A stretch of DNA of 32,359 bases from Candidatus Kaiserbacteria bacterium GW2011_GWA2_52_12. GTDB taxonomy: Bacteria; Patescibacteriota; Minisyncoccia; Phycocordibacterales; UBA2100. The DNA is taken from assembly GCA_001004345.1 (NCBI GenBank), contig LCQW01000010.1:1-32359 (forward strand), read 5' to 3'. This document shows, one piece after another, positions 9,790 through 29,759 of the stretch; the stretch's first letter is position 1; each line of letters opens with the position of its first letter. The notes under the pieces were generated by a model. That model was not told where the DNA came from and ran no database searches. It was given only the letters and a program-made list of their open reading frames with translations. The position numbers and the translations under genes were made by a program.

Positions 9790-9984
9790 TTATTTGCAGC
9801 CGGGGGAGTAATAACAGGCACCGCGCACGATATTCGTCCAGAGATGGTCAGGATCGAGATACCAGCTCCATACGAGACAAACGATAATTCCAACAATGCA
9901 CAGCCCCATAAGTCCCCACAGCGAGTTGATAAACCATCGGGGCGTGTCGTTACCGCAATTGCAGTTGCTGCATTTCTTATACAT
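9790..9984 (-). CDS. small membrane protein with N-terminal Cys motif
   Basis: This 64-residue protein is unknown to me. It starts MYKKCSNCNCGND, with three cysteines spaced CxxCxC that could bind a metal or be lipid-modified. One hydrophobic helix follows (about residues 20-44, ending LVWSWYL), and the C-terminal tail contains ACYYSPGC with two more cysteines. The frame is supported by GAGGAG eight bases before the ATG and by a perfect terminator 41 bases after the stop. A GTG one codon upstream is an alternative start. Confidence 0.6.
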   Translation of the reverse strand: MYKKCSNCNCGNDTPRWFINSLWGLMGLCIVGIIVCLVWSWYLDPDHLWTNIVRGACYYSPGCK

Positions 9985-10046
9985 CACGACGACTCCTCTG
10001 CCGAGAATTCAACTAGTCGCTAGTATCAGTGTATGCGCCGCCCTTG

Positions 10047-11975: not shown

Positions 11976-11983
11976 AGGTAATT

Positions 11984-13873
11984 TTAGTTTGTTGCAGTTA
12001 CGTCGTTCGTGAATATATTCCAGACGTGCTCGGTATCCGTGTACCATTGGTAGGTATTGAGGAAGCGTCCGGCAGGAGTCGAGAGCGTACCGATGCTGAT
12101 TCCCTGGATCGATTTCGGTACTATATAGATAAAGTTGGGAGAGAACAAGAAAATGGCGGCGTTGTCCTTTTTGACGAGTGCTGCGAATTCTGCGTACAGG
12201 CGGTCGCGCTCTTTCTTATTGGTCGTCGCGCGGGCGTTCGCGAGCAGGGAATCGGCTTTCGAATTTGCATAGAGCGCGAGGTTCAATCCCGGGTCGTTGC
12301 GCTGGCTCGAGTGCCAGAAAGCGAAGAAATCTCCTTCGCGGCCGACGACTTCGCCGAAAAGTATCGCATCGTAGGCGCGCGGACGGATGACATTGGTGTT
12401 CAACTCCGAAAGCGGATATACCTGCACATCAACGGTGATACCGGCGGCTTTCCAATCTGCCGCAATGAGGTTCGCCGCTTTCACCAGCTCCGGCTGATCG
12501 GCCGTCACAAGGGTGAATTTCAACGTCGTTATACTCTTCCCCTTGCCTTTTGTCCACACGCCACCGGCCTCATCGAATGACCACTTCCCGCGCTTGAGTA
12601 TGTTTTGTGCATTTTCAACAAGGGAGGATGAAGACGCGACTACCGTCGAGGGGGAAACACTCGCATTTTGTTCTATGACGCCGGGCGGGATAGGACCGTC
12701 GAGGACGACGCCATTGCCGGCGAGCACCTTCTCGACGAGTGCGTATTTGTCTATTGCAGTATCGAGCGCTGCGCGCACCGATGCATCGGCGAGCACAGTG
12801 GCGTGATTTTGATTAAAGAATATTCCGAACGTCCGCGGGAGAGGCATGGAAAGTATGGTGCTGTCGTCCGCGCGCGTGATCGCGGGAAGGTCGGTCGGCG
12901 TGACACCAGCCATCGCACCGATTTTTCCGGCGTTGAACGCCTTTATCATATCCGCTTCGTTGGAATAAAACTTGAAAATGATGTGCTTCAAATGCGGGGC
13001 GCCGAGAGTAAAACCCTTGAACGGTACGAGATCGTAGGTCGTGACGGAGCCGGTCGAATCCGTATCTGTCGAGGCGACGCGATACGGACCGCTGCCGACG
13101 GGGTGCGTGTTGAGCGACGTAAAGGGAAATTCTTCTGCGGTGACATTTTGCCAGAGATGTTTCGGAAGGATACCGAGCGTCGTATCGTAGATGAACGGCG
13201 CGTACGCTTTGGGCAGCTTGAAAATAACGGTGCGCTGATCGGGAGTCGATACTAGTACCCCCTCCCAGTCCGCGCGGTGCGGGCTTTTGATATCGGGATT
13301 TTGTATAGCCTGTACGGTAAACAGAACATCCGTCGACGTGACTGGTGTGCCATCTTGGAACATCGCGTTTTGTTTCAATGTGAATGTGTAAGTAGTGCCG
13401 TCATCGGAGACAGAATATGACGATGCGAGGTCGGGAACGAGCGTCCCGCCCGCCTGCGCCGAAGCTTCGGCGGGCAGGTCGGGGAGCGCGCGCATAAGGC
13501 CGGAAAAAATGAGCATGCTCAAGTCTTGGTCGGGCTGTGAAAGCGTCATTATAGGATTGATGAACCGGGCCGGTCCGACCTCGCCTTCGATCAACGTCCC
13601 TCCTGCGGTTGGAACGGTGGTTGAGACATACGAACTCACGCCCGAAAGAAGCGCAAGCGCGCTTACTGCAAGGACGACCGTAAGACCATACAAAAGCAGA
13701 CGCTCGCTCGGTGAAAATGCGATAAGTAAACTCTCAAGCCGTGAAAATACGGATACACCCCGCTCTTTCAAGAACAGCGTTTTCATGTCGGTTTTTTTAT
13801 TCTGATACGCGACATCGCCATCCTCGGGACGTTGCCTATCGGTATGAGGAGATAGATCGAGCTCACTGCTCAT
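11984..13873 (-). CDS. membrane-anchored solute-binding protein, family 5 (peptide/oligopeptide type)
   Basis: An extracytoplasmic substrate-binding protein related to DppA/OppA. Instead of a lipoprotein signal it has a cytoplasmic N-terminus, then a transmembrane anchor containing LLLYGLTVVLAVSALALL. Family 5 features follow: GGTLIEGEVGPARFINPI, YTFTLKQNAMFQDGTPVTSTDVLFT, HPVGSGPYRV, and FFNQNHATVLADASVRAALDTAIDK. No permease or ATPase gene is adjacent. The start is uncertain: ATG at 13873 is used, but ATG at 13786 (MKTLFLKERG) is also possible. PAEASAQAGG near the start of the binding domain is encoded by a palindromic repeat. The gene ends eight bases before RNase J. Confidence 0.88.
   Translation of the reverse strand: MSSELDLSPHTDRQRPEDGDVAYQNKKTDMKTLFLKERGVSVFSRLESLLIAFSPSERLLLYGLTVVLAVSALALLSGVSSYVSTTVPTAGGTLIEGEVGPARFINPIMTLSQPDQDLSMLIFSGLMRALPDLPAEASAQAGGTLVPDLASSYSVSDDGTTYTFTLKQNAMFQDGTPVTSTDVLFTVQAIQNPDIKSPHRADWEGVLVSTPDQRTVIFKLPKAYAPFIYDTTLGILPKHLWQNVTAEEFPFTSLNTHPVGSGPYRVASTDTDSTGSVTTYDLVPFKGFTLGAPHLKHIIFKFYSNEADMIKAFNAGKIGAMAGVTPTDLPAITRADDSTILSMPLPRTFGIFFNQNHATVLADASVRAALDTAIDKYALVEKVLAGNGVVLDGPIPPGVIEQNASVSPSTVVASSSSLVENAQNILKRGKWSFDEAGGVWTKGKGKSITTLKFTLVTADQPELVKAANLIAADWKAAGITVDVQVYPLSELNTNVIRPRAYDAILFGEVVGREGDFFAFWHSSQRNDPGLNLALYANSKADSLLANARATTNKKERDRLYAEFAALVKKDNAAIFLFSPNFIYIVPKSIQGISIGTLSTPAGRFLNTYQWYTDTEHVWNIFTNDVTATN
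13448..13478. repeat. palindromic element inserted in frame in the solute-binding protein gene
   Basis: The core CGCCGAAGCTTCGGCG (13457-13472) is a perfect 16-bp palindrome, with imperfect GC-rich arms GCCTG and CAGG outside it. It encodes PAEASAQAGG between ALPDL and TLVPDLA. Confidence 0.6.
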
Positions 13874-13969
13874 AATTCTTCGTAGATAATTTTTTGTGGT
13901 GAAGGCCGTCAGTAAAGAGGGACTTCGGCGCAAAAGCGCGTGCTCTATCCCGCACAGGGGAGGAGTATG

Positions 13970-14203
13970 CTAGCTAATAAACAGATTGACCAACGCCGAC
14001 AATGCAAACAGTATAGCAAGAATAATGGTGGCCCAAAAGAGGGTTTTCTCCAAACCGCGACGCGTGTGGAAACCCGACGAGAAATTGTCGGCTCCGAAGG
14101 CGCCGCCCAAGGATGCGCCCGTGCGCTGCAGGAGAATAGCTGCAATTATCAGCCCCGAAAGGATGATCTGCACGAGAGGCAAGATTGACCGAAGAAAAAC
14201 CAT
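13970..14203 (-). CDS. secG: preprotein translocase subunit SecG
   Basis: SecG is the small helper subunit of the SecYEG channel. The 77 residues form two transmembrane helices (about 5-25 and 55-75). Between them is the family loop LLQRTGASLGGAFGADNFSSGF, cut here to its known core, followed by HTRRGLEKTLFWATI. The ATG at 14203 (MVFLRSILP) is preferred over an upstream ATG because an extended -10 element sits eight bases before it. The gene starts the minus-strand run with the solute-binding protein and RNase J; the gap to the next gene is about 100 bases. It is divergent from groES. Confidence 0.92.
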   Translation of the reverse strand: MVFLRSILPLVQIILSGLIIAAILLQRTGASLGGAFGADNFSSGFHTRRGLEKTLFWATIILAILFALSALVNLFIS

Positions 14204-14211
14204 ATGAAGGC

Positions 14212-14220
14212 ACTGTAGCA
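14212..14220 (-). promoter_or_regulatory. extended -10 promoter of secG
   Basis: On the minus strand TGcTACAGT ends eight bases before the ATG at 14203. It is the same hexamer as in front of glmS and implies an almost leaderless mRNA. Confidence 0.5.
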
Positions 14221-14251
14221 TATTAAAAAGAGAAGCGCAAACACACAGGAC

Positions 14252-14281
14252 TTGACCAACCCCATCCTTCTCATCTATAGT
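14252..14281 (+). promoter_or_regulatory. sigma70-type promoter of groESL
   Basis: TTGACC (14252-14257) is followed by 18 bases and TATAGT (14276-14281), the best -35/-10 pair in the window. The leader to the ATG at 14327 is about 39 bases. No CIRCE inverted repeat is seen, so HrcA control is unlikely. Confidence 0.75.
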
Positions 14282-14326
14282 GCTTCCACAAATTGAATTA
14301 TCAGATTAGTGGTTAATTTTATAGAT

Positions 14327-14665
14327 ATGAAGAAACAACCGAAAGCAAAGGAAGGTAAAAGCCCCGAGACCAAGATCAATATTCATCCGGTAGGAGATGG
14401 CGTGCTCATACGGCCCGAAGACACCCTGAAAAAGACTGCCTCCGGCATCATTATTCCCGACGCGGCAAAACAAGAGAAATCGACAAAAGGAGTCGTTGTC
14501 GCCGTCGGTCCTGGCAAAATGAACGACGACGGGAAAGTTCTTCCCATGAGTATTAAGGTCGGTCAGAAAGTATATTTCAGTCCGGGATGGGAAAGCGAAA
14601 TCGAAATGGATGAGGAAAAATTCTATCTCATCCATGAAAGCGACGTGAAAGCCGTTATCAAATAA
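14327..14665 (+). CDS. groES: co-chaperonin GroES
   Basis: GroES forms the heptameric lid on GroEL. The 112-residue protein contains the family core IHPVGDGVLIRPEDTLKKT, the mobile loop TASGIIIPDAAKQ that contacts GroEL, GVVVAVGPGKMNDDGKVLP, VGQKVYFSPG and the terminal YLIHESDVKAVI. It is about 15 residues longer than the E. coli protein (97) because of a Lys-rich N-terminal extension (MKKQPKAKEGKSPETK). The ATG at 14327 is used; an in-frame GTG at 14309 would add six residues. It lies ten bases before groEL and shares its promoter. Confidence 0.96.
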   Translation: MKKQPKAKEGKSPETKINIHPVGDGVLIRPEDTLKKTASGIIIPDAAKQEKSTKGVVVAVGPGKMNDDGKVLPMSIKVGQKVYFSPGWESEIEMDEEKFYLIHESDVKAVIK

Positions 14666-14675
14666 ATAAAAAACT

Positions 14676-16325
14676 ATGGCAAAACAAGTACTATTCGACC
14701 AGGACGTGCGGGCAGCGCTGAAGCGTGGCGTCGACATCGTCGCTGCAGCAGTCAAAGTCACTCTGGGACCGAAGGGACGCAACGTCGCACTCTCCAAATC
14801 GTGGGGCGGTCCCACCATCACCAACGACGGTGTATCTATTGCAAAAGAGATAACGCTCGCGGACAAATTCGAGGATATGGGTGCCTCCATCGTGAAAGAA
14901 GTCGCGACGAAGACGAATGACAAGGCGGGCGATGGCACGACGACCGCCGTTGTCTTGACGCAGGCGATCGTGCACGAGGGTCTGAAGCGCACGGCGCTCG
15001 GTGCCAACGCGATGATGGTGCGCCGCGGTATTGAAGCCGCTGCCAAGGACGCTGTCGCCGAACTCAAAAAGATGGCGCGCGAAGTGAAAGGAAAGAGTGA
15101 TATTCGTCAAGTCGCGCAGATCGCCGCGGAATCGGAAGAGCTCGGGAAGACGATAGCTGACACTGTAGAAAAAGTGGGCAAAGATGGCGTCGTCACCGTC
15201 GAGGAATCACAATCGCTCGGCATCGAGTCCGATTACGTGGAAGGCATGGAATTCGACAAAGGCTACGTCTCGGCATATTTGGTGACGAATCCTGAACGCA
15301 TGGAGGCGGAACTAAAAGACGCGCCCATTCTCGTGACCGACAAAAAAATCTCGACCATCAAGGAAATTCTGCCGCTCCTCGAAAAGGTGGCGCAATCCGG
15401 CAAGAAAGAGCTCGTCATCATCGCTGATGATGTCGACGGCGAAGCGCTCGCTACGCTCATCGTCAATAAACTGCGCGGCGTCTTCAACGTGCTCGCGGTG
15501 AAGGCTCCCGGATACGGCGACCGCAAGAAAGAAATGCTCGCGGATATCGCGACGACCATCGGCGCTACCGTTATCACCGAGGATCTGGGGATTAATCTCG
15601 AGAAGGCAGAGCTTGGCCAGCTTGGCCGCGCGAACCGCATCGTCGCGACGAAAGATTCGACCGTTATCGTCGGCGGCAAGGGTAAGAAATCGGAGATCGA
15701 AGCGCGCGTCGCGCAGTTGCGCAAACAAGTGGAAAATACCGACTCAAAATTCGACCGCGAGAAACTCGAGGAACGCATCGCGAAGCTGACGGGCGGCGTC
15801 GCGGTCATTCGCGTCGGCGCTGCGACGGAAACGGAAATGAAATATCTCAAAGACAAGATCGAAGATGCCGTCAATGCGACGAAGGCTGCCATTGCCGAAG
15901 GTATCGTGCCGGGCGGCGGCGCCGCGCTCGCAAAAGTGGGCGACAAGCTTGGGAAGAAGATCGATGCCGACAAACACGATGAGTACACGGTTGGCTATCG
16001 CATTCTCGTCTCCGCGCTTTCAGCGCCGTTCCTGCAGATCGCCTACAATGCTGGTCGCGAAGATGCCGCAGTGTTACTCCGTGATGTGCTAAGGGCCGGT
16101 GGAAGCCATGGGTATAACGCATCAGCGGAATCGGAAGAAGTCGCGATTGTCGACATGTACGAAGCGGGGATACTTGATCCCGTGAAAGTAACGCGCTCGT
16201 GCGTCGAGAATGCTGCATCAGCGGCGGCCGTCCTTCTTACCACGGAAGCCGCGGTCGCCGATATTCCCGAAGAAAAGAAAGCAGCGCCCGGTGGCGCGCA
16301 AGGGATGGGCGGGGAGGACTATTAA
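14676..16325 (+). CDS. groEL: chaperonin GroEL
   Basis: GroEL is the ATP-driven protein-folding chamber. The 549 residues match the family over the full length (E. coli 548). Visible signatures include AAAVKVTLGPKGRNVALSK, TNDGVSIAKEI, the ATP-binding AGDGTTTAVVL, VEGMEFDKGYVS, LVIIADDVDGEAL, KAPGYGDRKKEML and AAIAEGIVPGGGAAL. The C-terminal tail ends GGAQGMGGEDY in place of the long GGM repeat of many bacteria. No Shine-Dalgarno sequence is present; the ten-base gap to groES is AT-rich, so translation may be coupled. Confidence 0.98.
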   Translation: MAKQVLFDQDVRAALKRGVDIVAAAVKVTLGPKGRNVALSKSWGGPTITNDGVSIAKEITLADKFEDMGASIVKEVATKTNDKAGDGTTTAVVLTQAIVHEGLKRTALGANAMMVRRGIEAAAKDAVAELKKMAREVKGKSDIRQVAQIAAESEELGKTIADTVEKVGKDGVVTVEESQSLGIESDYVEGMEFDKGYVSAYLVTNPERMEAELKDAPILVTDKKISTIKEILPLLEKVAQSGKKELVIIADDVDGEALATLIVNKLRGVFNVLAVKAPGYGDRKKEMLADIATTIGATVITEDLGINLEKAELGQLGRANRIVATKDSTVIVGGKGKKSEIEARVAQLRKQVENTDSKFDREKLEERIAKLTGGVAVIRVGAATETEMKYLKDKIEDAVNATKAAIAEGIVPGGGAALAKVGDKLGKKIDADKHDEYTVGYRILVSALSAPFLQIAYNAGREDAAVLLRDVLRAGGSHGYNASAESEEVAIVDMYEAGILDPVKVTRSCVENAASAAAVLLTTEAAVADIPEEKKAAPGGAQGMGGEDY

Positions 16326-16553: not shown

Positions 16554-17135
16554 TTAAGGTAATTTGAAATGTTCCTTGATCCAGCGATCATTTTCGATTG
16601 AATCAACGATCATGTAGAGTACGTCCTTTCCGATTCGAAGATCCGCTTTTACAAGGGCAACGAGGTCTTCGCAATCGTATGGATAGATCCACATGCTTTT
16701 TTGTAGTTGGAGGAATCCCAAATCGCTCATGGTGTTTCGTAATCGATCGCGGATATTTCTCCGTTTTTCCGGGACGTCGAAAGCGACGACTCGATACCGA
16801 CTGTCCCATTTTCGCTTTTTTCCAGCCATATGTGAAAGGCGCGCTTGTTCCAGAATCAGTGCACTCCTTCCTTTCTCTGTTATTGCCGCATATCGCACGC
16901 CATTTCGTTCTACGAAACGTATATGTCCTTTGATAGCCAGTCTTTGCAGTGCAGTATGCGCACGGAAGGTAAGTTTGTATCTTTCCTTACCCATTACGAT
17001 AGGCAGCACTTGAAATATATTTGGCGCAACCATCGCCACACTCATTAATCCCACTGTACCAACGGCTGCGAGCACTGCTTGCTGGATGCGGCGCTTTTTT
17101 CTTCGTTTTTTCGATTCAATTTCCATTTTCCCCAT
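16554..17135 (-). CDS. membrane-anchored PaaX/Cas2-like protein
   Basis: A 193-residue protein of a kind I associate with Patescibacteria, often labelled PaaX-like regulator or Cas2. It has a Lys/Arg-rich start (SKKRRKKRR), a hydrophobic segment (about residues 20-48, VLAAVGTVGLMSVAMVAPNI), and a winged-helix-like part (ALQRLAIKGHIRFVERNG..YAAITEKG). It ends in the ferredoxin-like fold shared by Cas2 and the PaaX C-terminus: YRVVAFDVPEKRRNIRDRLR, then LGFLQLQKSMWIYPYDCE. The Asp in AFDVPE matches the Cas2 metal-site position. No CRISPR array or other cas gene is present. The start at 17135 is chosen because the -10 TATACT ends seven bases upstream. Palindromes flank the gene on both sides. 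Confidence 0.8.
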   Translation of the reverse strand: MGKMEIESKKRRKKRRIQQAVLAAVGTVGLMSVAMVAPNIFQVLPIVMGKERYKLTFRAHTALQRLAIKGHIRFVERNGVRYAAITEKGRSALILEQARLSHMAGKKRKWDSRYRVVAFDVPEKRRNIRDRLRNTMSDLGFLQLQKSMWIYPYDCEDLVALVKADLRIGKDVLYMIVDSIENDRWIKEHFKLP

Positions 17136-17171
17136 ATCCTTAAGTATACACGATCGTGAACAAATAAGGAT
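17136..17171. promoter_or_regulatory. palindrome (copy C) overlapping the promoter of the PaaX/Cas2-like gene
   Basis: ATCCTTA and TAAGGAT end a 36-bp palindrome centred on CACGATCGTG (17149-17158). On the minus strand the core lies directly upstream of the -10 TATACT (17148-17143), where a repressor would block RNA polymerase. The palindrome ends at the base before the ATG at 17135, so the mRNA would be leaderless. One arm nearly repeats copy B. Confidence 0.65.
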
Positions 17172-17187
17172 TTTTACTTCTTGAGAT

Positions 17188-17520
17188 TTACCCTTGGGAG
17201 GCCGGGATTGTTTTCTTGTCAATGCCGAGATGTTTTTCGATTGCTGCGATGCGCTCGAAGGCATGGTCGATTTCTTTTCGGTATCCCGTAATGTTTTCGA
17301 CTTTCTTTCGAATGTCCTCAAGATCGAGACGGATTTCTTTCAGCTCCTGTTCGATGCCCGCTACCTGTTCTTGCAATTTTATGATATCGCTCTTTAATTC
17401 ATTCCTTACTCCTTTAATTTCGTTCCGAAGGTCAGTTATATCGTCTTTCGTCGCCATGTGTTTGACTACATGCGCGACCATTTCGCCGATCTCATTGAGA
17501 GTAGTTTTCTTTGGGGCCAT
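17188..17520 (-). CDS. small coiled-coil protein with TKDD motif
   Basis: A 110-residue protein, soluble and almost wholly helical. After MAPKKTTLNEIGEMVAHVVKHM comes ATKDDITDLRNEIKG, then heptad-like runs of Leu/Ile with Glu and Lys to about residue 100. ATKxDI-type coiled coils occur in many small bacterial proteins, including Bdr-like and DUF1640-like ones, but no function follows from that. The ATG at 17520 lies six bases after a TATAGT box, so it is probably leaderless. It is divergent from the giant gene, and a second TKDD coiled-coil gene lies on the giant gene's other side (27424). Confidence 0.7.
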   Translation of the reverse strand: MAPKKTTLNEIGEMVAHVVKHMATKDDITDLRNEIKGVRNELKSDIIKLQEQVAGIEQELKEIRLDLEDIRKKVENITGYRKEIDHAFERIAAIEKHLGIDKKTIPASQG

Positions 17521-17651: not shown

Positions 17652-20600
17652 ATGTGCGCTTCACGCACGGCGGTTTTCTCACTCGCGATGTTCGTGCTGC
17701 TTTTTGCTGTTCCTGCAATTACGTACGCAGTCGGTAAAGATGCAAATTCCAAGTGCACTCCGTGGTACGAGGAGTGTGGATGCGGTGAAAAGCCAAATCC
17801 GGACGCGGGCGAACCGAGAGAGCCGGATTGTATTAAAGGCGTTAATACGAACAAATGTCCTCTCGGTATTTGTTACGACGACAATGGTGATGTGAAAGGC
17901 GTTTGTACCGGTCTGAATAGATGTACAGGAAGAATGTGTGGTGGGAAGCCATGCGAACTGACAAAATTACCACCGACGGATCCGAGTGCTCGTGAGGAGG
18001 CTTCCTTGATACAAGGTACCGGTGGCAACGGATCAATACTCGATCAATCAATCTTCAATCCAGAATCGATGACATGGAATCCACCAACGGGGGAGCAAAC
18101 TGCAGCAGGTTCATTCAGTGATGCTCTACGGCAAATAGGTGGTTTGTCAGGCGGTGCATCGGAAGGAGCAACACCGGTGCCGACGACGGGTGTCAGAGTA
18201 CCCGGGGGCGTTGCAGAGATCGGACCACCATCGGGCAGCTTCGGAGAAGCGCCACCGACGAGTGAGGTGAACGGACAATCATTTAACGGCGAACCGGTTC
18301 CTTACGAATATACAGGTTATACAGGATTTGAATCTCCACCGGCACCATCGTCGGAACTTCCTGCGGGGATAACTAGAGAACAGGTAGAAGCCCGTATGAT
18401 TGAAATGGGTTATTCTCCTGAGCGAAGAGCCAGCTTGACTCAAGCATCTGAAAAGATCGTGTACGATAACGCCGTACAGAGTCTCATTTTCGATAAAGGG
18501 AGACCGCTTGCGGTTACTCCGTCTCCAGTCACCCCCATTCCTTCTGCCCAAGAAAGTATCGTCGCTGCAGCAAGGTGGGTTGGGGACGCGGTGATCAGCG
18601 GATACAATTATTTGTTTGGAGGTTCAAACGTTCCACCACCTGCCACAGAACCATTGCCGCAAGGTGAGTGGAACGATGTTCCGTGGACTGAATCCTTGCC
18701 TAATGGCGAATGGTCCGATACTCCATGGGTAGAACCATTACCAAGTGGTGATTGGGCTGACGTTCCTTGGACTGAACCGCCACCTTCGGAACCAACGACT
18801 CCACCAACGCCAGAACAGACATGGAGTGAATGGATGGCACAGCAGCTCACTGATTACCTTGGGACAAATCAATTCGGCGCAGAAGGTGCACCACCCGCAC
18901 CTCCCATAGACAATTCTCAAGATACAGCTGAGGGGGCGATTACAAGCACGCACCCTGCTCAAATAAATCCCGAAGATCTTCCCGTTAATCCATCTCGAGA
19001 ATTAACACCACTTGAAAAACTTGCCGCTGAACTTTCTGTAGACCAAACGGCGGCGCAAGGGCGACTTGAAGCAGAGCAATATTGGGCGCAAAAAGCACAA
19101 ACGGATCTTCGCAATGCGGAGATAGATCTTAATGATGCGAGGGACGGCGTTGATATCGCTTCACGACCCGTCACAGCAGCGCAAGCGCAAGTAGATAAAC
19201 TAGTGGCGGAAGGAAAGGCCGTCGTTCAGATAGATGAACGGGCTGAGCTACAAAATCTTCGTGAGCGTGCAGCGAATGCCGAATTTGCACCCGGCAGTGA
19301 ACCTCCCCTGACGGCCGCGGAGCAACAGAGACTGCGGACATTGGAGGCGGCAGAATCAAACAACGCTCTGCAAAGGGTTTATCAGGCGACGAGTCGCGAT
19401 TCACTTCCTGCTTTGACACAGGCGATTAACAACCTTCAACAGGCCCAAGCAGCGGCACAGCCGAGTATAAATAACCTTAATAATGTTGTGGGGCCTCAAT
19501 ATCAACAGGTTCTCGCGGATGCACAAACGGCTTCCGCTAATTATAGACAGGCATACGACGATTACCAGAGGATCTCTTCTGAAATACAGACTACCCGGGA
19601 AAATAATGGCATCAATGTGTACAACTCACCTACCTCATATACCGCCGATCCATCGTTGGGGAAATCGAGCGGGCTTACACCAGACGGAGGTCGAGAAGTT
19701 ACCTTCTACGGCACACCACGGGAGGGGCTTCAACAAGCACAAGCATACCAACAAGCATTGGCGCAGCAGGCTCTCAATACCGCAGAAGCCCAGCGTCTCG
19801 CGGGTGTGATGGATGCTGCAAGAAATGGAGACCCTAGTGCGATGGTGGAGGTGAGGCAGTTTTCCCGCGGCTTAGAAGGGGTGCAAACAGAAATCGACCG
19901 ACTAAATGCTCAAAATGCTGAAATTGGAAAAAATATTTCAGATTTTCGAACGGGTGATAAAACTCTTGATCTCGCTGCGATTACTGACATAGCGAGACAA
20001 CCATTACCAGCGGGGCAACAGGCATTACTTGACATCGGCGAGAACACGACAAATTGGAGTGATGTGAGTAATGCGTGGAAAAATGGCGATTATGTTGGAG
20101 CAGTTGCTAATACATATGCAAATCTTGTGGGTGCGGTAGTAAGTGCCCCTGCCGATTCCTTGTCTACCATGATCGGTAATCCTCAAAATCCATATGTTGC
20201 AACATTCTGTGAATCATGCGCTCTGGCCGAACGTGTGCAGGCGACAGTCAATACTGCTATCAACGCCACGATGCTTGCCCCCGTGGTCGTCGGCGCGGTT
20301 CGGGTCGCTGACAGTCTCGTCGGTATTGCAGAAGGTGTTGGTCGCGAGGCTGGCGCTCTCATGGCTGAATCTTCTGGTTTCAGTCGCGGTATTGTCGGTG
20401 ATGTTCCTTTTTCTCAACTTGGTCGCGGCATTGAAACGGGTACTGTGTTTGAGTTTCGGGCAGGGCCATTTATTGTGGATTCAGAAACAGGTGCTATCAC
20501 GAGGGGAATTGTTGAACAGGTGCCTGTAGTTAGCTCTGTTGGTACCAACATTACTGCGGAAACAGGTGGACTGTTGAATAATAGTTGGGTTAATTCTATA

Positions 20601-23600
20601 GTAGACAGCGTTCTCGGGAGGGCAGCAGTAGGTGTAGGAGTGCTTGCCGACCCGACCGCCGTCGTTGCGATGGATGCTGCCCGGACTGTACAAACTATCG
20701 TCGAACCCGTAACCACTGCGCTACTTAACCCAACTGTTCTTTCGAGTGCACCGATAATTACAGGTGCACTAGAACCTGCTGTGGCCAGTATTATCGGCGC
20801 TGAATTCAGGGCGCTCTCCACTGCTGTTCCATTTGCCGGACTTGCTGTCCCTGTGGTTTCAAATTGGAGCGCGTTTGCACCGACAGAATTCCCTAATACA
20901 GTCGCGTCGGTCGCATACACACCCGCTTCCTATGTTTCGCCAGCATCTCCTGATTTTGCCAGTATTGCGCCTGCAGCCCCCATGGCTCCAGCAGGCATAA
21001 CAACAGTTTCTCCCGATGGCGTCGAGAGCTGGACACCGACTGCGTCGGTACCATCCGTCGTATCTACCGAAATCGCGCCGACTGCGCCGACGCTTGCCTC
21101 GGCACCTGCCGAAGTTGCGCCGACTGCGCCAGCAGCACCTTCGACGGTTGCTGTTCCCTTACCTTCTGCACCTCCCATAATTCCAATATCCGGCCCTGTT
21201 TCTTTGCCGACAATTAGAGTGGATACGGTGGAACCAGAAATCCAAAATTATTCTCCATGGATACGTAGCGTGAGTATGAATTACACTCCGTGGCTTGGTG
21301 GATACCCATATCTTGGTTCTCCGCCTGCGGCGGTACTGTTACCAACGTCGCCAGCCGTACCGGGAACCGAACCCGCTGTTTCTCCGACGAATCCTGCTCT
21401 ATCACCAGCAGCGCCTGCGACGGTCGCCCCAAGTCCCCCCGCGCCGACGGTGACTCCCTCGGTGCCGAGCGTTAACGCTCCGGGTTCGATTCCCTCACCG
21501 CAAGCCGCTCCGGTCTCCCCGAGTATCCCTGCCGTGCCATTGCCAGCCCCAGTCACTCCAGCGCCCGCTCCAACGACGGTGAGTCCGTTTATGGCATGGC
21601 TCAAATTAGTACCTGGTAATTTGACGTTCAATCCCATAACACCCGCTCCAGCGGGAATGAATCAACTCATGAATGGATGGAATTTTGGAAATCTCAATGC
21701 GGGTGTCGCGTGGGAAGGATCGGTTCCGAGCATTGGGAAGCAGGCAACGTTTGTCAGTCCGTACTTTGGAGCGCGAGCGGATTTCTTGAATATGGAGCGG
21801 CAGATGTCGAACGGTAATGACACATTGAAAAAGCTAATAACTCAACTGTCTCCTCCGTCGGAAAACAAAACGACAAAAATGATCGCGTACCTTTCTGATG
21901 CGTTGGGAGTAGAGCCGGATCAAAAGTTGGATTTCAACGATAAGCCATTGATCATCAAGTTGTTCAATGAAAAATCATTCCTCGAACACAGCATTCGACC
22001 GAGCAGCATTGTGAATCCGGAAACGATCGTGCAGGCATACGATGCCGCCGTGGCATATAGAGCGGGCGTGCCGGCGCCGCCGGCTCCTGCTCTTGCAAGT
22101 CAACTCCTGCAGACTTCTCCAGCACCGGTCTTGGCGAGCACGCCAGCGGTGCCTGCCGCTTCAAATCCAACGAAGCCAACTGTAGTGCAAACAGTTCCCG
22201 CATCTACGCCGATCACCAATCCAATACCTGCTCCAGTTACACCAGCTCCGGCACCAGTTTCGCCGCTTACGCAATGGCTTAAAGATCTTCTTCCAAAATA
22301 TGTTTTCAGCAACCCATTTGTATCACCGGGACTTGCTGCAGAACCATCAGTTGCTCCTGCTCCGAAATGGCAAACAGGTGTTTCGTCCACGTACTCCCCT
22401 GACTCTGGACCCGCCATAGAAGGAGGACCGAATGGCGCGTATTCGGAAAAAAAGATTATTGGAAGTTCACAGTTCTCGACCCTCGATCCGTCGAAAATTC
22501 CACCATTCTCTATTGTCGAGATTAGTGGTCCAAATGGCAAAAGCATCATCAGATATGCGGGTGATAAAGGCTATCATCCCCCAAGAGTTATTGATCTCAC
22601 AAAAAGTGATGCGTCACTCATTGGATGTGGGACCAATAGTACCTGTTCCGTGTCATATCGTATTCTTGCCAAGCAACCGGGCGTGAACTCTACAAGCGAT
22701 GCTACTAAGTTGGGCGTAGCAGGGAGAGCGGCAGCGACTACACGGGCAGAACAATTAGTTGCTCAATATTCTGCGCCGTCGATACAACCAGCACCCACAC
22801 TTTCGAGTGCGCCGGCGAAGCCTGTCGTACAAAATCCATCGGTGAATCCGACTGCGGTAAAAACAGTCCCCGCATCTACACCAATCACCAATCCAATACC
22901 TGCTCCGACGCGTTCGCTCGGCCAAGTGGTGGTTGATGGGTTGGGGGTCATTGCCCAAGTGGCCGCACGAGGGGCGAGTCCTGCACCAGTACCCAGCGCC
23001 GGTTCACTGTTGACAAACCCGCAGCGTACCGTCATCGCGCCGGAAACTACGGTTCCACAATCCATTACCGATGTCGAGGCGCGCGCACAAAACATTATTG
23101 CCGCCGCGCGGCAAGCGTATCCCAATATCACCAACAAGGAGCTTGCGGCGCAGGTCGTGTTTAATGGACTGCAAAATTCTCCCGCTTTCAATAATTTGCG
23201 TACCAACGCGGGAATCGATATTTTCAAAACGAGAAATCTCACCCCTGCGCAAGTGCGATCGGTCAACGGATACATAGCGCAACAGGTCGCCACACTTCAA
23301 AAACCAATTGGCTATCCTAATGTTCCTGTGGGAGCGCAGGGTCGCACACTTGTCTCGTACCCAGCGAGTGCTACGAGCCCGGGTGCCTATAATTCTGTCA
23401 ACAATTTCCTCTGGGATCAGATTTTCAATAGCCCATACGCATACGCGAGGATCGACAGCACCGGTGACTTTACGTGGAAAGATATTGCTGCTGCCCTAAA
23501 TAGCGGTCGCAGTGTGCGCGACGAGGTGCTCAATATGAATAAGGAGCTCAAGATTGCGCTCTATGGTGCTGGCAAGGCGATGATTGCCGACGGTCTAAAA

Positions 23601-26600
23601 CCTGGCGGGCTTGCATTTTATCGTGATGCAAACAATCGTCCGTCGGTTGAGCGAGGTCCCGGTATTGTCGCTGCAGCTCCAAAAAATTCTCAACACTACG
23701 CTGGCGGCGTGGGAAATGCAGCTGATATCGGCTCGGCGCGGGTGGTACCTCGGCCAAGTAATCTGACTTCCGCGCAAAGGGAAGCAAATGACGATGCGCG
23801 CGGTGCCGAGAACCAATCGGTGTGGAATTGGCTTGCCAAAAACGGATCAAAGTATAATTTGCGGGCGAATTTCATTGGCAATGATCCCGCGCACGTGCAG
23901 CCTGCCGGTAACAGCAAAATCTACGCGCAACAACAGCGACAAGTCACTGCCGATACGAAGCTTGCGGCGGCGCAAACACAACCAGCGCCGACACTTGTAA
24001 GTGCACAGGGAACTCCAGTAAAAACAGTTCCTGCGTCTATACCGACGCGTGCTCCCGTACCCGTCACTCCAACGGTTACTCCACCTATTACTACACCTGT
24101 CGTTCCAGCCGTCGCTCCGGCCACAGTTCCGGCGCCCACACCGACCGACGCGGCGGAGATGAAGACGACCGGATTCGTGAAGATCGCCAACCCGGCGATT
24201 CCCAACGGCACCGCCGCCATCGTCATTCAGAAGGGATTTAATCCCTTTGACACAACAAATCCTCCGGTAATCGTGTATCACTTCCCGGGCCAGAGGCAGG
24301 GAGCAAACAGCAACAACGAAAAAGATCTGAGTTTGGGAACCGAGCAGTTGAAGGATACGAATACTGTTTTGGTGGTAGTTGAGCTCGATCCGCGGGTCGG
24401 GGCGAGCGGCGTTAGCGCGGGGAATTTCGCAAAACCCGGAGTATTTGATGCATTCAGAAATGAAATCGCAGCAAAAGCTGCGGCACTCTATGGAAATCCG
24501 AATGCGATTAATGCCTTCAAGAACATGAAGAACGTGATGACCGTCTACAGCGGTGGTTATAGCTCGGCCGCGGCCGCTTTGCGTACCATGAGCAATCCAT
24601 CGGTGATAAAGGAAGTCGTACTCCTCGACGCCCTCTACGGAAATGTAAACGATTTCGCGCAATGGAAGAAGAATAATCCGGACAGCATTCTCACGAGCTA
24701 CGCGCTCACGACGCAGAAAAATAACGACGCGCTGAAAAAACAGATCGGGAACCTGCCGAACGTGACGTTCGTCAACCTCTCAATTGCGGTCAAGAACGCG
24801 AATCATTACACCTTCGTCGGCGACCAGAACCTCTTGCCAATCAAACAGGCGGTACTTGCTCTCAATACTCAAACATTGCCGACGGTCACTGCGCCCACAC
24901 TCGCATCCTCGCCTGTTACCGTCGTACCAACAGTCCCTGCGTCCGCACTAAGTACCGTTCCTGTCCCCGCACCGACTGTTGCCCCGACTCCAATTCCAGT
25001 GCAACCGCTTACTTTCGCGCAACTGCAAGAGTTTGGCGGATGGGGAACTCTGGTACCGCGACCAGTTGTTCCATTTCCGCGCGTGGCACCTGAAGCGATC
25101 CGGCCGTTTATCGCCGATACGCCGGAGAATACATTGTGGCTGACTCTCGGTCAGGCGCCGTACGGCGGCATGCAGTTCCTTGCACCGAATGGAGCCAGAC
25201 CGGTGGCGGTGTCGTACACGCCTACGCTTGAATCTCCTACATTGCCCGCTGCTCCGGCGCCAACAGCGGTTGCGCAGAATCAACCGCAGGAAACGTTCAC
25301 CGAGAGGATCGATCGCATCGCGAGTAATTTCGTGAACGAATTTATGGGACGCGTGAACACGCCCGCGCCCGCGGTGCTTCCGCCGGTGAATCCGCAAGCA
25401 CCTGCTCAAGTTGTCACACCAGCGACACCACCGTCAACCGTCGCTGCACCTCCTGTTGTGCAGCCCGCTCCGGCACCGACACTACCCGGTGCGCAGACTG
25501 ACACAGTCGCGTTGGAAAAACAAAAGCAGGACATCGACACGCGCATCGCCTCGATCAATAACGAATTGACGAATAATCAGAAACAGATAGATGCCGCGCT
25601 GGGTATCGAACGACAGGTCAATACAATGATAACTGCCGCGCGCGATCTCGCGCAAAATCCGCTCGTGCCGCAGGGCGATCGCGCGCGACTGTCGGCGCTT
25701 ATCCCTGAAGTCGTGAAAGCCGTGCAGGTGATCAATCCGCTGATCCCATCCGCTAATAAACCCGCAACACTCGACGGTGTCGTCGCGCTTAGCGGTCTCC
25801 AGGGTCCATTCAATAATTTAAAGACGCCGTCAGATAAGATCGTTGCGATAGTGGAATCGCTCAAAGTTCCGGATATTTCGCAGACAGCCAATAAAGTCGC
25901 AGACCTGCAAGCCGCTCGCACGCAGATCGAAACGCGATTGAACGACGCCAATACTGAAAAATTGGGCGCGCAATATGCTCTGCAACAAGTGAAGGCACGG
26001 AAAGCGACCGAGGAGGCAAATAAGAGAATTGCCGCGTTGCCTGTGATTGATCTGACAGAATTTCTTAACAGTAACGTGCCTGTTGGACAACAAGTTCAAG
26101 CAGAAACAGTTGGGCAATTGATTTTCTCTCTTGTGGATCCGCCTGTCGGCAGATTCTTGAGTCAATATATCGTTGCACCGACGCCGGCAATACCACTAGC
26201 CGAAACAACTGTCGCAGTACCCGAGACACCACCTCCCACCCTCGCGAGCGCGCCCGCATCTGTACCAGTTACGCCAGCACCAATCATTTCGCCGACTCCT
26301 GCGCCGGTCACATCGCCAGCGCCAGCTCCTCTAACACCTGCACCAGCACCTGCGCCGACACCGCTAAATCCGTTCAATCAACCTGTAATACCGACGCCGT
26401 CGTCTCGCACTGGAGGGAAGACGACCAGCCCTGCATCTCCAAAGCCAACACCCGAAGGTGAGGGGATTTCCCTCGAGCCGCAACAATTACAACTTCCACT
26501 CAATGAACCGGCCCAGCCTCCTCGTACGCCCGCGCCGGCTATCGAGCCACAGCAACTCAACTTGCCGTTTGGCGAGGGACGACAACTCGAATTGCCTTTG

Positions 26601-27389
26601 ACAGGAGGCGGTGGTAACCCGTCGGAATCCCTTACACCACCGACACCGGGAAGCAGTGGATGGTGGACGGCGGCGAAAATGGGAGGAAATGCTTTCAGGT
26701 GGGCATGTTTTGGTGGATGGAAGCGTTCTGCTCTCTGCGCAAGCTTGGGAATCTGGGGATATTTAAATCTCCCGGATATCACCAACAATCAACCGCCATC
26801 AAACAACCCACCAAATAACCCATCAACACCACCGGGCGGTGGAGGACCGCCACCAGTATCACCACCAGGCGGTGGAGGACCGCCGGGAGTACCACCAAAT
26901 GGAGGCGGATTCACGCCGCCGGGTTCACTGAAGCTGTGCGATGTGCAGAATTCCAACGCCCCATGCATCACATCGTCAGGACAGGAAGTTACGATTGTAC
27001 CCATCAAACAAAATCCAAGTCCGGATCTTCCTCTCGGAGAACTCACTCCCACACCCACGGCGTACCAAAGACCACCACTGGGCGGCACGGAACCATTCCC
27101 AATAGAACCCATTACGGGACCCAGGACGCCGCCACCGGTTACACCGCCGCCGCCAAGACCAATGCCATATCCGCGGTATAGAGTGGCATACCCGGTCATC
27201 ATCGGTTACCCGAGCGGTTACCGAAGCGGATACGGAAGCCCGTTCTACATGCTCGGACAACTCCTCGGCAGTTTATTCGCTCCAGGTAATCAAAACCAAC
27301 CAACACAGCCACCGCCGCAAGTTCCGCCTAATGTGCCGCCTCGCGTAGCGACAACAACAACAGCAACGACGAGCGTCGGGGTGCGATAG
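17652..27389 (+). CDS. giant secreted multidomain protein with several predicted envelope-hydrolase modules
   Basis: About 3,245 residues. A signal peptide (residues 1-26, cut after ITYA) fixes the start. Next is a head with about ten cysteines (33-103), three 14-residue Trp repeats (334-375), a coiled coil (about 450-650), Ala/Gln helices (to about 790) and a hydrophobic stretch (about 855-950). Long Pro/Ala/Thr linkers then separate four modules. Residues 1351-1470 (WEGSV..PPSENKT..YLSDALGV) resemble a domain of phage structural proteins. Residues 1579-1677 (PFSIVEISGPNGKSIIRYAG, RVIDLT) resemble an RlpA-type double-psi barrel. Residues 1807-2093 resemble M15 peptidases (SQHYAGGVGNAADIG with His2015 and Asp2025, DPAHVQ with His2081). 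Residues 2169-2407 resemble an alpha/beta hydrolase (Ser2300 in YSGGY, Asp2326 in LLDALYG, His2385). A coiled coil (2617-2797), a hydrophobic segment (about 3004-3042) and a Gly/Pro-rich tail follow. Domain calls are by eye; the surface location is well supported. Confidence 0.85.
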   Translation: MCASRTAVFSLAMFVLLFAVPAITYAVGKDANSKCTPWYEECGCGEKPNPDAGEPREPDCIKGVNTNKCPLGICYDDNGDVKGVCTGLNRCTGRMCGGKPCELTKLPPTDPSAREEASLIQGTGGNGSILDQSIFNPESMTWNPPTGEQTAAGSFSDALRQIGGLSGGASEGATPVPTTGVRVPGGVAEIGPPSGSFGEAPPTSEVNGQSFNGEPVPYEYTGYTGFESPPAPSSELPAGITREQVEARMIEMGYSPERRASLTQASEKIVYDNAVQSLIFDKGRPLAVTPSPVTPIPSAQESIVAAARWVGDAVISGYNYLFGGSNVPPPATEPLPQGEWNDVPWTESLPNGEWSDTPWVEPLPSGDWADVPWTEPPPSEPTTPPTPEQTWSEWMAQQLTDYLGTNQFGAEGAPPAPPIDNSQDTAEGAITSTHPAQINPEDLPVNPSRELTPLEKLAAELSVDQTAAQGRLEAEQYWAQKAQTDLRNAEIDLNDARDGVDIASRPVTAAQAQVDKLVAEGKAVVQIDERAELQNLRERAANAEFAPGSEPPLTAAEQQRLRTLEAAESNNALQRVYQATSRDSLPALTQAINNLQQAQAAAQPSINNLNNVVGPQYQQVLADAQTASANYRQAYDDYQRISSEIQTTRENNGINVYNSPTSYTADPSLGKSSGLTPDGGREVTFYGTPREGLQQAQAYQQALAQQALNTAEAQRLAGVMDAARNGDPSAMVEVRQFSRGLEGVQTEIDRLNAQNAEIGKNISDFRTGDKTLDLAAITDIARQPLPAGQQALLDIGENTTNWSDVSNAWKNGDYVGAVANTYANLVGAVVSAPADSLSTMIGNPQNPYVATFCESCALAERVQATVNTAINATMLAPVVVGAVRVADSLVGIAEGVGREAGALMAESSGFSRGIVGDVPFSQLGRGIETGTVFEFRAGPFIVDSETGAITRGIVEQVPVVSSVGTNITAETGGLLNNSWVNSIVDSVLGRAAVGVGVLADPTAVVAMDAARTVQTIVEPVTTALLNPTVLSSAPIITGALEPAVASIIGAEFRALSTAVPFAGLAVPVVSNWSAFAPTEFPNTVASVAYTPASYVSPASPDFASIAPAAPMAPAGITTVSPDGVESWTPTASVPSVVSTEIAPTAPTLASAPAEVAPTAPAAPSTVAVPLPSAPPIIPISGPVSLPTIRVDTVEPEIQNYSPWIRSVSMNYTPWLGGYPYLGSPPAAVLLPTSPAVPGTEPAVSPTNPALSPAAPATVAPSPPAPTVTPSVPSVNAPGSIPSPQAAPVSPSIPAVPLPAPVTPAPAPTTVSPFMAWLKLVPGNLTFNPITPAPAGMNQLMNGWNFGNLNAGVAWEGSVPSIGKQATFVSPYFGARADFLNMERQMSNGNDTLKKLITQLSPPSENKTTKMIAYLSDALGVEPDQKLDFNDKPLIIKLFNEKSFLEHSIRPSSIVNPETIVQAYDAAVAYRAGVPAPPAPALASQLLQTSPAPVLASTPAVPAASNPTKPTVVQTVPASTPITNPIPAPVTPAPAPVSPLTQWLKDLLPKYVFSNPFVSPGLAAEPSVAPAPKWQTGVSSTYSPDSGPAIEGGPNGAYSEKKIIGSSQFSTLDPSKIPPFSIVEISGPNGKSIIRYAGDKGYHPPRVIDLTKSDASLIGCGTNSTCSVSYRILAKQPGVNSTSDATKLGVAGRAAATTRAEQLVAQYSAPSIQPAPTLSSAPAKPVVQNPSVNPTAVKTVPASTPITNPIPAPTRSLGQVVVDGLGVIAQVAARGASPAPVPSAGSLLTNPQRTVIAPETTVPQSITDVEARAQNIIAAARQAYPNITNKELAAQVVFNGLQNSPAFNNLRTNAGIDIFKTRNLTPAQVRSVNGYIAQQVATLQKPIGYPNVPVGAQGRTLVSYPASATSPGAYNSVNNFLWDQIFNSPYAYARIDSTGDFTWKDIAAALNSGRSVRDEVLNMNKELKIALYGAGKAMIADGLKPGGLAFYRDANNRPSVERGPGIVAAAPKNSQHYAGGVGNAADIGSARVVPRPSNLTSAQREANDDARGAENQSVWNWLAKNGSKYNLRANFIGNDPAHVQPAGNSKIYAQQQRQVTADTKLAAAQTQPAPTLVSAQGTPVKTVPASIPTRAPVPVTPTVTPPITTPVVPAVAPATVPAPTPTDAAEMKTTGFVKIANPAIPNGTAAIVIQKGFNPFDTTNPPVIVYHFPGQRQGANSNNEKDLSLGTEQLKDTNTVLVVVELDPRVGASGVSAGNFAKPGVFDAFRNEIAAKAAALYGNPNAINAFKNMKNVMTVYSGGYSSAAAALRTMSNPSVIKEVVLLDALYGNVNDFAQWKKNNPDSILTSYALTTQKNNDALKKQIGNLPNVTFVNLSIAVKNANHYTFVGDQNLLPIKQAVLALNTQTLPTVTAPTLASSPVTVVPTVPASALSTVPVPAPTVAPTPIPVQPLTFAQLQEFGGWGTLVPRPVVPFPRVAPEAIRPFIADTPENTLWLTLGQAPYGGMQFLAPNGARPVAVSYTPTLESPTLPAAPAPTAVAQNQPQETFTERIDRIASNFVNEFMGRVNTPAPAVLPPVNPQAPAQVVTPATPPSTVAAPPVVQPAPAPTLPGAQTDTVALEKQKQDIDTRIASINNELTNNQKQIDAALGIERQVNTMITAARDLAQNPLVPQGDRARLSALIPEVVKAVQVINPLIPSANKPATLDGVVALSGLQGPFNNLKTPSDKIVAIVESLKVPDISQTANKVADLQAARTQIETRLNDANTEKLGAQYALQQVKARKATEEANKRIAALPVIDLTEFLNSNVPVGQQVQAETVGQLIFSLVDPPVGRFLSQYIVAPTPAIPLAETTVAVPETPPPTLASAPASVPVTPAPIISPTPAPVTSPAPAPLTPAPAPAPTPLNPFNQPVIPTPSSRTGGKTTSPASPKPTPEGEGISLEPQQLQLPLNEPAQPPRTPAPAIEPQQLNLPFGEGRQLELPLTGGGGNPSESLTPPTPGSSGWWTAAKMGGNAFRWACFGGWKRSALCASLGIWGYLNLPDITNNQPPSNNPPNNPSTPPGGGGPPPVSPPGGGGPPGVPPNGGGFTPPGSLKLCDVQNSNAPCITSSGQEVTIVPIKQNPSPDLPLGELTPTPTAYQRPPLGGTEPFPIEPITGPRTPPPVTPPPPRPMPYPRYRVAYPVIIGYPSGYRSGYGSPFYMLGQLLGSLFAPGNQNQPTQPPPQVPPNVPPRVATTTTATTSVGVR
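18651..18776 (+). repeat. three tandem 14-residue Trp repeats in the giant protein
   Basis: The units LPQGEWNDVPWTE, LPNGEWSDTPWVE and LPSGDWADVPWTE follow each other without gaps, each with two Trp. The DNA copies differ at many third positions, so selection probably acts on the protein. Confidence 0.85.
22191..22235 (+). repeat. interdomain linker repeat, copy 1
   Basis: It encodes TVPASTPITNPIPAP. Copy 2 (22863-22907) is the same at 41 of 45 bases. Shorter relatives occur near 24020 and 24928, each at a junction between folded modules. Confidence 0.8.
22863..22907 (+). repeat. interdomain linker repeat, copy 2
   Basis: It encodes the same TVPASTPITNPIPAP peptide as copy 1 and lies between the RlpA-like and M15-like modules, while copy 1 lies just before the RlpA-like module. 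The pair brackets that module exactly. Confidence 0.8.
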
Positions 27390-27709: not shown

Positions 27710-28270
27710 ATGAACATTACATACATTATTCTTGGAGTTGTAATCGTAGTTCTCGCATGGGCAGTTTTTCTTTATAACCGCTTCGTCACGCTTACGAATC
27801 GCGTGAGGGAGGCGTGGTCGGATATCGACGTGCAGCTCAAACGCCGATACGACCTCATTCCAAATCTTGTGGAGACGGTCAAGGGGTATGCCTCGCACGA
27901 GAGCGGCACACTTACGAAAGTGACAGAAATGCGCACGCGCGCGATGAACGCCACTTCGCCGAAAGACAAAGCGGATGCGGAAAATATGCTGACGGGCGCG
28001 CTGAAGTCGCTGTTTGCCGTCGCCGAAAATTACCCCAACCTGAAAGCGAATGAAAATTTCGTCGAGCTGCAGCGCGAGCTTTCCGATACGGAAAATAAGA
28101 TCCAAGCCGCGCGCCGCTTTTACAACGGCGTCGTGATGGAACTCAACACCGCGCTCCAATCATTCCCGTCGAATCTCATCGGCAGCACGTTTGGCTTCGC
28201 GCCGCGTGATTTCTTCGAACTCGGCACGGATGAACAGGCGGCCAAAGAGCCGGTGCAGGTGAAATTTTAG
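27710..28270 (+). CDS. lemA: LemA family membrane protein
   Basis: The 186-residue protein has one N-terminal transmembrane helix (about residues 4-24, IILGVVIVVLAWAVFLY) and a long four-helix-bundle domain. Family signatures are YNRFVTLTNRVREAWSDID, VQLKRRYDLIPNLVETVKGY, FAVAENYPNLKANENF, LQRELSDTENKIQAARRFYN and SFPSNLIGSTFGF. LemA function is not settled, but the gene is often next to htpX and is linked to envelope stress. Here a NUDIX gene separates the two. The ATG at 27710 follows the coiled-coil gene by four bases. Confidence 0.96.
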   Translation: MNITYIILGVVIVVLAWAVFLYNRFVTLTNRVREAWSDIDVQLKRRYDLIPNLVETVKGYASHESGTLTKVTEMRTRAMNATSPKDKADAENMLTGALKSLFAVAENYPNLKANENFVELQRELSDTENKIQAARRFYNGVVMELNTALQSFPSNLIGSTFGFAPRDFFELGTDEQAAKEPVQVKF

Positions 28271-28849: not shown

Positions 28850-28855
28850 TATAGT
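28850..28855 (+). promoter_or_regulatory. -10 box of htpX, leaderless arrangement
   Basis: TATAGT is followed by seven bases and the ATG at 28863. It comes directly after the NUDIX terminator, so htpX appears to have its own promoter. Confidence 0.55.
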
Positions 28856-28862
28856 GACTGAA

Positions 28863-29759
28863 ATGGCCTCTTTGTATACACAGCAGGGGAGAAACGTATT
28901 CCGCACATGGATGCTCATGAGCGTGTTTTTCACGCTCGTTATCGCGGTCGGCTGGTTCGTCTCGTACTACTACAACGCCCCCGGCATACTTTACCTAGCG
29001 GCATTCTTCGCCATTGCGATGAACATCACCGCATACTGGTTTTCCGATAAGATCGCTATCGCGGCGGCCCGCGCGGTTCCCGCGGATGAACGCGAGTACA
29101 GAGAGTTGCACCGCATAGTGGAAAATCTCGCCATCACGGCGGGACTCCCGAAGCCGCGCGTGTACATCATTGATGACCCTGCCCCCAATGCCTTTGCGTC
29201 GGGCCGCGATGCAAAAAATGCCGTCGTCGCAGTGACGACGGGACTTCTCGGGGTACTCGACCGATCCGAGCTTGAGGGCGTCATAGCACACGAGCTCTCG
29301 CATGTGGGCAACCGCGACATTCTGGTCATGACCGTGGCGGTCGTTCTGGTCGGCATTCTTTCCGTCCTTGCGGATATATTTTTACGCATGAGTTTTTATG
29401 GCGGGAGGGATAGAGACAACGACAACCGCAATCCGCTCATCATGGTTGCCGGTATTATCGCCATCATTCTCGCGCCCATCGCGGCGCAGCTCATACAATT
29501 AGCCATTTCGAGGCGGCGCGAATTTCTCGCCGACGCTTCTGGCGCACTGCTCACCCGCTATCCCGACGCTCTCGCGTCGGCGCTCGCGAAGATAGGCTCA
29601 TATCGTGCGCCGATGCAGCATGTCTCGACGGCAACCGCCCACCTCTTTATTTCAAATCCATTCGGCGCACATGAGGCGGGGCAATATATGCAGAAATTGT
29701 TCTCCACCCATCCGCCGATAGCAGAGAGGATAGCCGCACTCAATGGATTACGGGTATAG
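28863..29759 (+). CDS. htpX: membrane zinc metalloprotease HtpX
   Basis: HtpX (M48 family) degrades damaged membrane proteins. The 298-residue protein begins MASLYTQQGRN, as in the family, then has two transmembrane helices (about residues 16-38 and 44-64). The zinc site is AHELSHVGNRD (His143, Glu144, His147), and the third ligand is the Glu in RREFLADASGALLT. A further hydrophobic segment pair lies at about 157-180 and 198-222. FISNPFGAHEA and LFSTHPPIAERIAAL close the domain. The ATG at 28863 is preferred over an in-frame GTG at 28854, which overlaps the -10 box. Confidence 0.97.
   Translation: MASLYTQQGRNVFRTWMLMSVFFTLVIAVGWFVSYYYNAPGILYLAAFFAIAMNITAYWFSDKIAIAAARAVPADEREYRELHRIVENLAITAGLPKPRVYIIDDPAPNAFASGRDAKNAVVAVTTGLLGVLDRSELEGVIAHELSHVGNRDILVMTVAVVLVGILSVLADIFLRMSFYGGRDRDNDNRNPLIMVAGIIAIILAPIAAQLIQLAISRRREFLADASGALLTRYPDALASALAKIGSYRAPMQHVSTATAHLFISNPFGAHEAGQYMQKLFSTHPPIAERIAALNGLRV

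Follow-up and report, generated by a model that had tools for sequence, protein, structure and literature searches.

Large exported surface proteins have been described in Patescibacteria, for example in the Absconditicoccaceae (PMC13059738), and giant open reading frames (ORFs) are known from Omnitrophota (PMC10066038). The predicted protein that we describe here resembles them in being very long, exported, poor in recognised domains and encoded by a small-genome, presumed epibiotic bacterium; hence, the kind of protein is already known. However, those proteins have been described mainly with adhesion domains, whereas the present giant carries several predicted murein-enzyme modules and lies in a hypervariable chromosomal slot. 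We found no description of such a slot with exchanged hydrolase modules in the open-access literature, although absence of this kind is weak evidence.

Other known systems resemble the giant, or the proteins of its slot, in part. The Enc34 endolysin (7q47) and the lysins associated with phage virions (internal virion endolysins, tape-measure lysins) contain domains homologous to its modules A and C, whereas the giant is a predicted Sec-exported bacterial protein encoded outside any cluster of phage genes. RlpA-type lytic transglycosylases (Pfam DPBB_1) share with module B a double-psi barrel profile and a D.G motif, from which module B departs in being highly divergent and in having no recognisable RlpA-type His. 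M15 D-Ala-D-Ala peptidases (VanY, VanXY) share with module C the metal-binding and catalytic pattern H...G.A.D...D..H, together with a PDB profile match, while in module C the loop that joins the first His to the Asp is variable and the domain is embedded in a giant. Polymorphic and contact-dependent toxins, like the slot giants, combine a conserved N-terminal part with exchangeable modules, yet in the slot giants no immunity gene and no C-terminal toxin were seen. These comparisons bear on the ways in which small epibionts attach to partner cells or breach them, and on what sets their partner range.

The giant gene

The window, by which we mean the whole 32,359-nucleotide stretch of DNA that was analysed, is an entire contig of a source genome of 925 kb (91% complete, 38 contigs), and the giant gene makes up about 1% of that assembly. 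The gene and its surroundings are as follows.

14676..16325, + strand: cpn60 chaperonin, left slot border (Pfam Cpn60_TCP1, 7e-67)
17652..27389, + strand: gene for the giant, predicted secreted protein, 3,245 aa (uninterrupted ORF; slot gene between cpn60 and lemA)
27710..28270, + strand: lemA, right slot border (Pfam LemA, 1.9e-62; synteny)
28854..29759, + strand: htpX-like gene after lemA (synteny; 68-78% identity in genus loci), which we take to be HtpX from its sequence and prior knowledge

A sequence-only reading made before this analysis had proposed a single 9.7-kb gene of about 3,245 residues, and the uninterrupted frame at 17652-27389 (+) bears this out. The enclosing stop-to-stop frame has 3,294 codons; the start at ATG 17652 is supported by the alignments of relatives, which begin at their own signal peptide. 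The same reading had raised the possibility of an assembly error joining separate genes. Such an artefact is unlikely, because syntenic slots elsewhere hold giants of similar or larger size and a linker repeat (see below) is the sole notable internal DNA repeat. Third-position GC is 0.39-0.61 in the giant versus 0.66-0.67 in three neighbouring genes, as is expected for a fast-evolving or acquired gene. Pfam gave nothing above cut-off with the whole giant or with each module separately, and an NCBIfam search gave no match. A PaaX/Cas2-like regulator (PaaX_M, 3.8e-19) adjoins the giant gene on the minus strand (16554-17321).

A conserved slot with changing contents

Cpn60 is present in 47 of the 52 genomes of the genus. 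Reading up to 20 kb around cpn60 placed both slot borders on one contig in 34 genomes, with the gene order RNase J, SBP5, cpn60, slot, lemA, htpX; the same order occurs in more distant relatives, where the gap is mostly small. In 21 of the 34 spanned genomes the slot, a gap of 1.1-13.1 kb, contains one or more ORFs that are 311-4,140 aa long and run in the same direction as cpn60; in the other 13 it is empty (gaps 1-722 bp), so that the role of its product is not essential in the genus. When 33 of the 34 are placed on a Cpn60 tree, occupancy changes at least seven times; this is a quick tree with many weak forks, on which gain and loss are inseparable. At least 11 of the 21 complete occupied slots contain a recognisable hydrolase module; in 10 of the 21, local profiles detected none. 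The reading of the giant as one allele of a conserved, hypervariable and modular cpn60-lemA slot, in a Kaiserbacteria-like genus of Patescibacteria, is well supported by this gene-order comparison.

Signal peptide and Cys-rich head

The N-terminus of the giant comprises two elements.

17652..17729, + strand: signal peptide, residues 1-26 (hydrophobic peak 2.22; similar N-termini in relatives)
17730..18002, + strand: Cys-rich head domain, spanning residues 27-117 (matched by profile A4 at E 3.0e-19)

Both had been read from the sequence beforehand. The signal peptide is upheld by the hydrophobic peak and by the N-termini of relatives, and the head proves to be real and conserved across relatives in the genus. 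Residues 1-29 form the sole strong hydrophobic segment of the giant, a second at 874-893 being marginal, and 10 Cys residues fall within the first 100 positions. A head profile of 15 rows with five invariant columns, four of them Cys, found the domain in 41 of the 52 genus genomes, and when 297 genomes from the order were sampled its matches were confined to this genus, one of 165 genera. Many slot ORFs begin with the same head, and in six complete slots the ORFs have signal-like, Cys-containing N-termini that the profile does not detect. The head also occurs outside the slot on proteins of roughly 420-890 aa, three more of them in this genome. On these profile matches the head is a genus-specific domain, present also on smaller proteins predicted to be secreted.

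Predicted enzyme modules

Four modules set in Pro/Ala linkers had been proposed, three of them as peptidoglycan or envelope enzymes. The segments lie between Pro/Ala-rich linkers as listed here, and independent evidence for murein-enzyme folds was obtained for three of the four (A, B and C).

21642..22058, + strand: module A, phage lysozyme-fold domain (PHA02564 / internal-virion-endolysin type), residues 1331-1469 (PHROG, phage and PDB matches)
22368..22664, + strand: module B, divergent double-psi beta-barrel (RlpA/lytic-transglycosylase type), residues 1573-1671, with Asp1638 (hhalign)
23328..23936, + strand: module C, M15/VanY-like zinc D,D-peptidase domain, residues 1893-2095, with His2015, Asp2025, Asp2078 and His2081 (family profile, motifs)
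24156..24872, + strand: module D, probable alpha/beta-hydrolase, residues 2169-2407, with Ser2300, Asp2326 and His2385 (motifs kept in L163; low-confidence model)

Module A matches phage endolysin and tape-measure families in PHROGs (best PHROG 873, E 1.2e-10) and, by tblastn, 191 phage records (best 4e-13), several of which carry an annotation as lytic transglycosylase or as an internal virion protein that has an endolysin domain. In the PDB, a four-row profile of the module matched 9vvp_L at E 1.1e-14 and, at E 0.0085, the Enc34 endolysin 7q47. The module recurs in the slot giants of loci L038, L063 and L080/L032; a profile scan of viral contigs by short patterns returned no relative, although tblastn in phages gave matches. 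Together these matches identify module A as a predicted member of the PHA02564 / Enc34-type endolysin domain family. The Enc34 endolysin domain is muralytic in assays, and Glu131 is its inferred catalytic residue (PMC8943055). In module A, Glu1445 is invariant and falls opposite Glu131 by ungapped extension past the printed end of the alignment, which lies a few residues before Glu131, on the assumption of one extra leading residue in the 170-residue chain. Glu1445 is presumed to be the catalytic Glu of module A. The supporting aromatics of Enc34, Trp79 and Tyr95, seem to have no counterpart in the window's copy, where the Trp is absent and Met stands at the Tyr position; in the L032 relative both positions are aromatic.

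When module B was aligned by hhalign with a profile of the double-psi beta-barrels (DPBBs) of other slot giants, it scored 31.3 (P 6.9e-6, 95 columns), against at most 9.4 for other tiles of the same protein (one tile overlapping B aside) and at most 10.2 for 40 shuffles. Pfam does not detect the module alone. The Asp of the ND.G motif is kept (AGDKG, Asp1638), but the RlpA-type His (AH..LPFGT) is not recognisable at the aligned place; L059 has one. Among the top structure matches of a single-sequence AlphaFold2 model (pLDDT 53) was kiwellin (4pmk), which we take to be a double-psi barrel protein, at a non-significant E of 0.19. Among the 3,721 ORFs searched, DPBBs at E < 1e-3 were found in 14 genus proteins and no others, and 12 of these are slot ORFs; viral contigs and phages yielded no relatives of module B. 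The profile alignment and retained Asp identify module B as a putative, divergent RlpA-type double-psi barrel.

Module C belongs to a small family together with L034, L035, the same-genome L172 (with a signal-like N-terminus) and L170. A five-row family profile matches D-Ala-D-Ala carboxypeptidases in the PDB (5hnm, E 3.4e-4), and L035 and L170 fall short of the curated cut-off in their matches to Pfam VanY (8e-4 and 4.5e-4, respectively); the window's segment alone gives a weak match (E 0.14). By motif, the metal ligands are His2015, Asp2025 and His2081, with the catalytic Asp2078 three residues before the last His. Module C is, by profile and motif, a predicted member of the M15/VanY-like zinc D,D-peptidase family. 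A tblastn search with the module gave no match in phages, and a scan of viral contigs gave one relative: L170:412-4947, a 1,511-aa protein of a viral contig that has an M15-like domain and a C-terminus which, in our judgement, resembles tape-measure proteins. The succession of DPBB and M15 is found again in L035, and likewise in L034, where the DPBB match is weak.

Module D has a relative in the same genome, the secreted protein of L163, with 30% identity and the same Ser/Asp/His motifs in order. This relative (L163:1243-2184, 314 aa) has nothing above cut-off in Pfam or NCBIfam; one marginal stretch, which contains a stop, is the other relative and comes from another genus, and none was found in phages, plasmids or viral contigs. 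A single-sequence AlphaFold2 model of low confidence (pLDDT 43) shows the Ser flanked by a strand and a helix and has no significant structural match in the PDB. The conserved motifs and this model suggest that module D is probably an alpha/beta hydrolase.

Further regions of the giant are listed below.

18999..19991, + strand: coiled-coil-like region, residues 450-780 (Ala/Gln-rich; weak matches to coiled-coil families)
20052..20906, + strand: low-charge hydrophobic region, residues 801-1085 (by composition; partial relative in L022; marginal TM-like segment 874-893)
22172..22234, + strand: linker repeat copy 1 (direct repeat D1)
22844..22906, + strand: linker repeat copy 2 (direct repeat D1, 86%)
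24005..24067, + strand: linker repeat copy 3 (direct repeat D1, 60%)
25500..26036, + strand: second coiled-coil-like region, residues 2617-2795 (weak matches, coiled-coil families only)
26619..27386, + strand: C-terminal tail rich in Pro and Gly, residues 2990-3245 (searches of the genus gave no relative)

One copy of this 63-nt repeat separates each of the four modules from the next (A/B, B/C and C/D), and the copies could favour recombination. Slot giants such as those of L036, L038, L039, L056 and L072 have in common a C-terminal Ig-like domain of 75-85 aa with an LTWSS motif, which is absent from the window's giant.

Mosaic alleles

The combination of modules had seemed unfamiliar from the sequence, and a search for the same architecture found the identical module set in none of the 52 genus genomes. 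The clearest case of a cassette apparently replaced in place is provided by L038 and L039, which are sister genomes by Cpn60. Their giants are 60% identical over residues 1-268 and 73% identical in the C-terminal part; between these common flanks, residues 279-407 are module A in L038, and residues 353-467 are a double-psi barrel in L039. A segment of the L039 giant (332-682) is 63.5% identical to residues 600-940 of L073, which belongs to a different Cpn60 clade. This is one pair and not a survey; with it, the view that slot alleles are mosaics is well supported by the alignments. Beyond what had been read from the window, the comparison adds the giant's status as a slot allele, the phage-virion relatives of modules A and C, the genus-specific head and the mosaic alleles, and it documents modules that a secreted bacterial scaffold has in common with virion proteins of phages.

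Function of the giant

Of the sequence-only reading, which had suggested an attachment or host-wall-breaching machine as a possible role, the predicted secretion, the modular build and at least three predicted peptidoglycan-enzyme modules are supported. Taken together, the predicted modules and export signal lead us to favour, with some reserve, a Sec-exported, surface-retained, multi-module murein hydrolase that most likely opens the envelope of a partner or prey cell, the target being the more conjectural element. The Cys-rich head would keep the giant at the cell surface, and the coiled-coil-like, hydrophobic and Pro/Ala regions would form a long tether. Modules A and B may cut glycan strands, module C peptides and module D an ester or similar bond; acting together, they would make a local opening in murein, most likely in the envelope of the partner or prey. 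Rapid turnover of modules would then track changing partners.

The main rival to a partner envelope as target is self-directed remodelling, in which the giant would open the wall of its own cell, for instance for the passage of pili, secretion machinery or division proteins, and exposure of the surface to phages or grazers would diversify the slot. The genome has three penicillin-binding transpeptidase ORFs, which make such remodelling possible; DPBB, M15 and amidase folds are also those of housekeeping murein enzymes, and cpn60 and lemA-htpX are conserved whether the slot is filled or empty. Methanogens, to our knowledge, lack murein, which points either to bacterial partners for this genus or to an action of the enzymes on the cell's own wall. 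Methanogenic archaea are the hosts parasitised by cultured Paceibacteria relatives (PMC10936435). The 13 empty slots count against a role in the cell's own wall, as does the fact that the housekeeping hydrolases known to us are rarely so long, so modular or so variable. We regard own-wall remodelling as unlikely, although it deserves serious weight.

Somewhat less probable still is that the giant is mainly an adhesin or surface coat, with hydrolase-like modules that bind murein or glycans without cutting them. Since the Trp79 and Tyr95 positions appear not to be conserved in module A and the RlpA-type His is unrecognisable in module B, one or both of these modules may bind rather than cut. The very long linkers and coiled-coil-like regions are consistent with adhesion, and large surface proteins of other Patescibacteria have been reported with adhesion domains (PMC13059738; see also PMC10066038). 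Nevertheless, Glu1445 in module A, Asp1638 in module B and the His-Asp-(D..H) pattern in module C are all kept, which argues for cutting.

A polymorphic toxin with an immunity partner would account for the conserved N-terminal part, the variable remainder and the repeated changes in slot occupancy. We consider it very improbable: no co-varying candidate immunity gene was seen beside the slot alleles in a comparison that covered small ORFs unsystematically, the enzymes lie mid-protein and not at the C-terminus, and no toxin family was found. A prophage tape-measure or internal virion protein, suggested by the phage-virion relatives of modules A and C and by the long coiled-coil-like and hydrophobic regions, is scarcely credible given the Sec signal peptide and the syntenic housekeeping neighbours in place of virion genes.

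If the giant is a surface-held hydrolase directed at partner or prey envelopes, the slot itself invites a further, tentative idea. The genus slot may act as a partner-range system, in which a Cys-rich surface head is fused to changing strings of murein-cutting modules, some of them related to phage-virion domains, and swapped cassettes decide whose wall the epibiont opens. We hold this to be possible but doubtful. As a fixed slot with exchangeable enzyme cassettes, it offers a concrete and testable candidate for the determinant of partner range.

Other Cys-rich and neighbouring ORFs

The head profile can be used to find further proteins of this kind in the genus. In L059 (~3822-16003), one slot contains three large ORFs in a row (1093, 827 and 1991+ aa), all Cys-rich and with a signal-like N-terminus, preceded by an ORF that we take to be transposase-like. 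Downstream of cpn60 in another member of the genus lies an ORF (L052:9786-10841) that is presumably RT-like, resembling those of diversity-generating retroelements. A conserved protein of 420-530 aa, encoded at L025, L026, L028, L029, L031, L033, L164 and L169, combines a signal-like N-terminus and the same Cys-rich head with a hinge rich in Gly and a C-terminus that is Ig/PKD-like; its gene in L025 lies near those for DNA polymerase I and a T2SSE ATPase.
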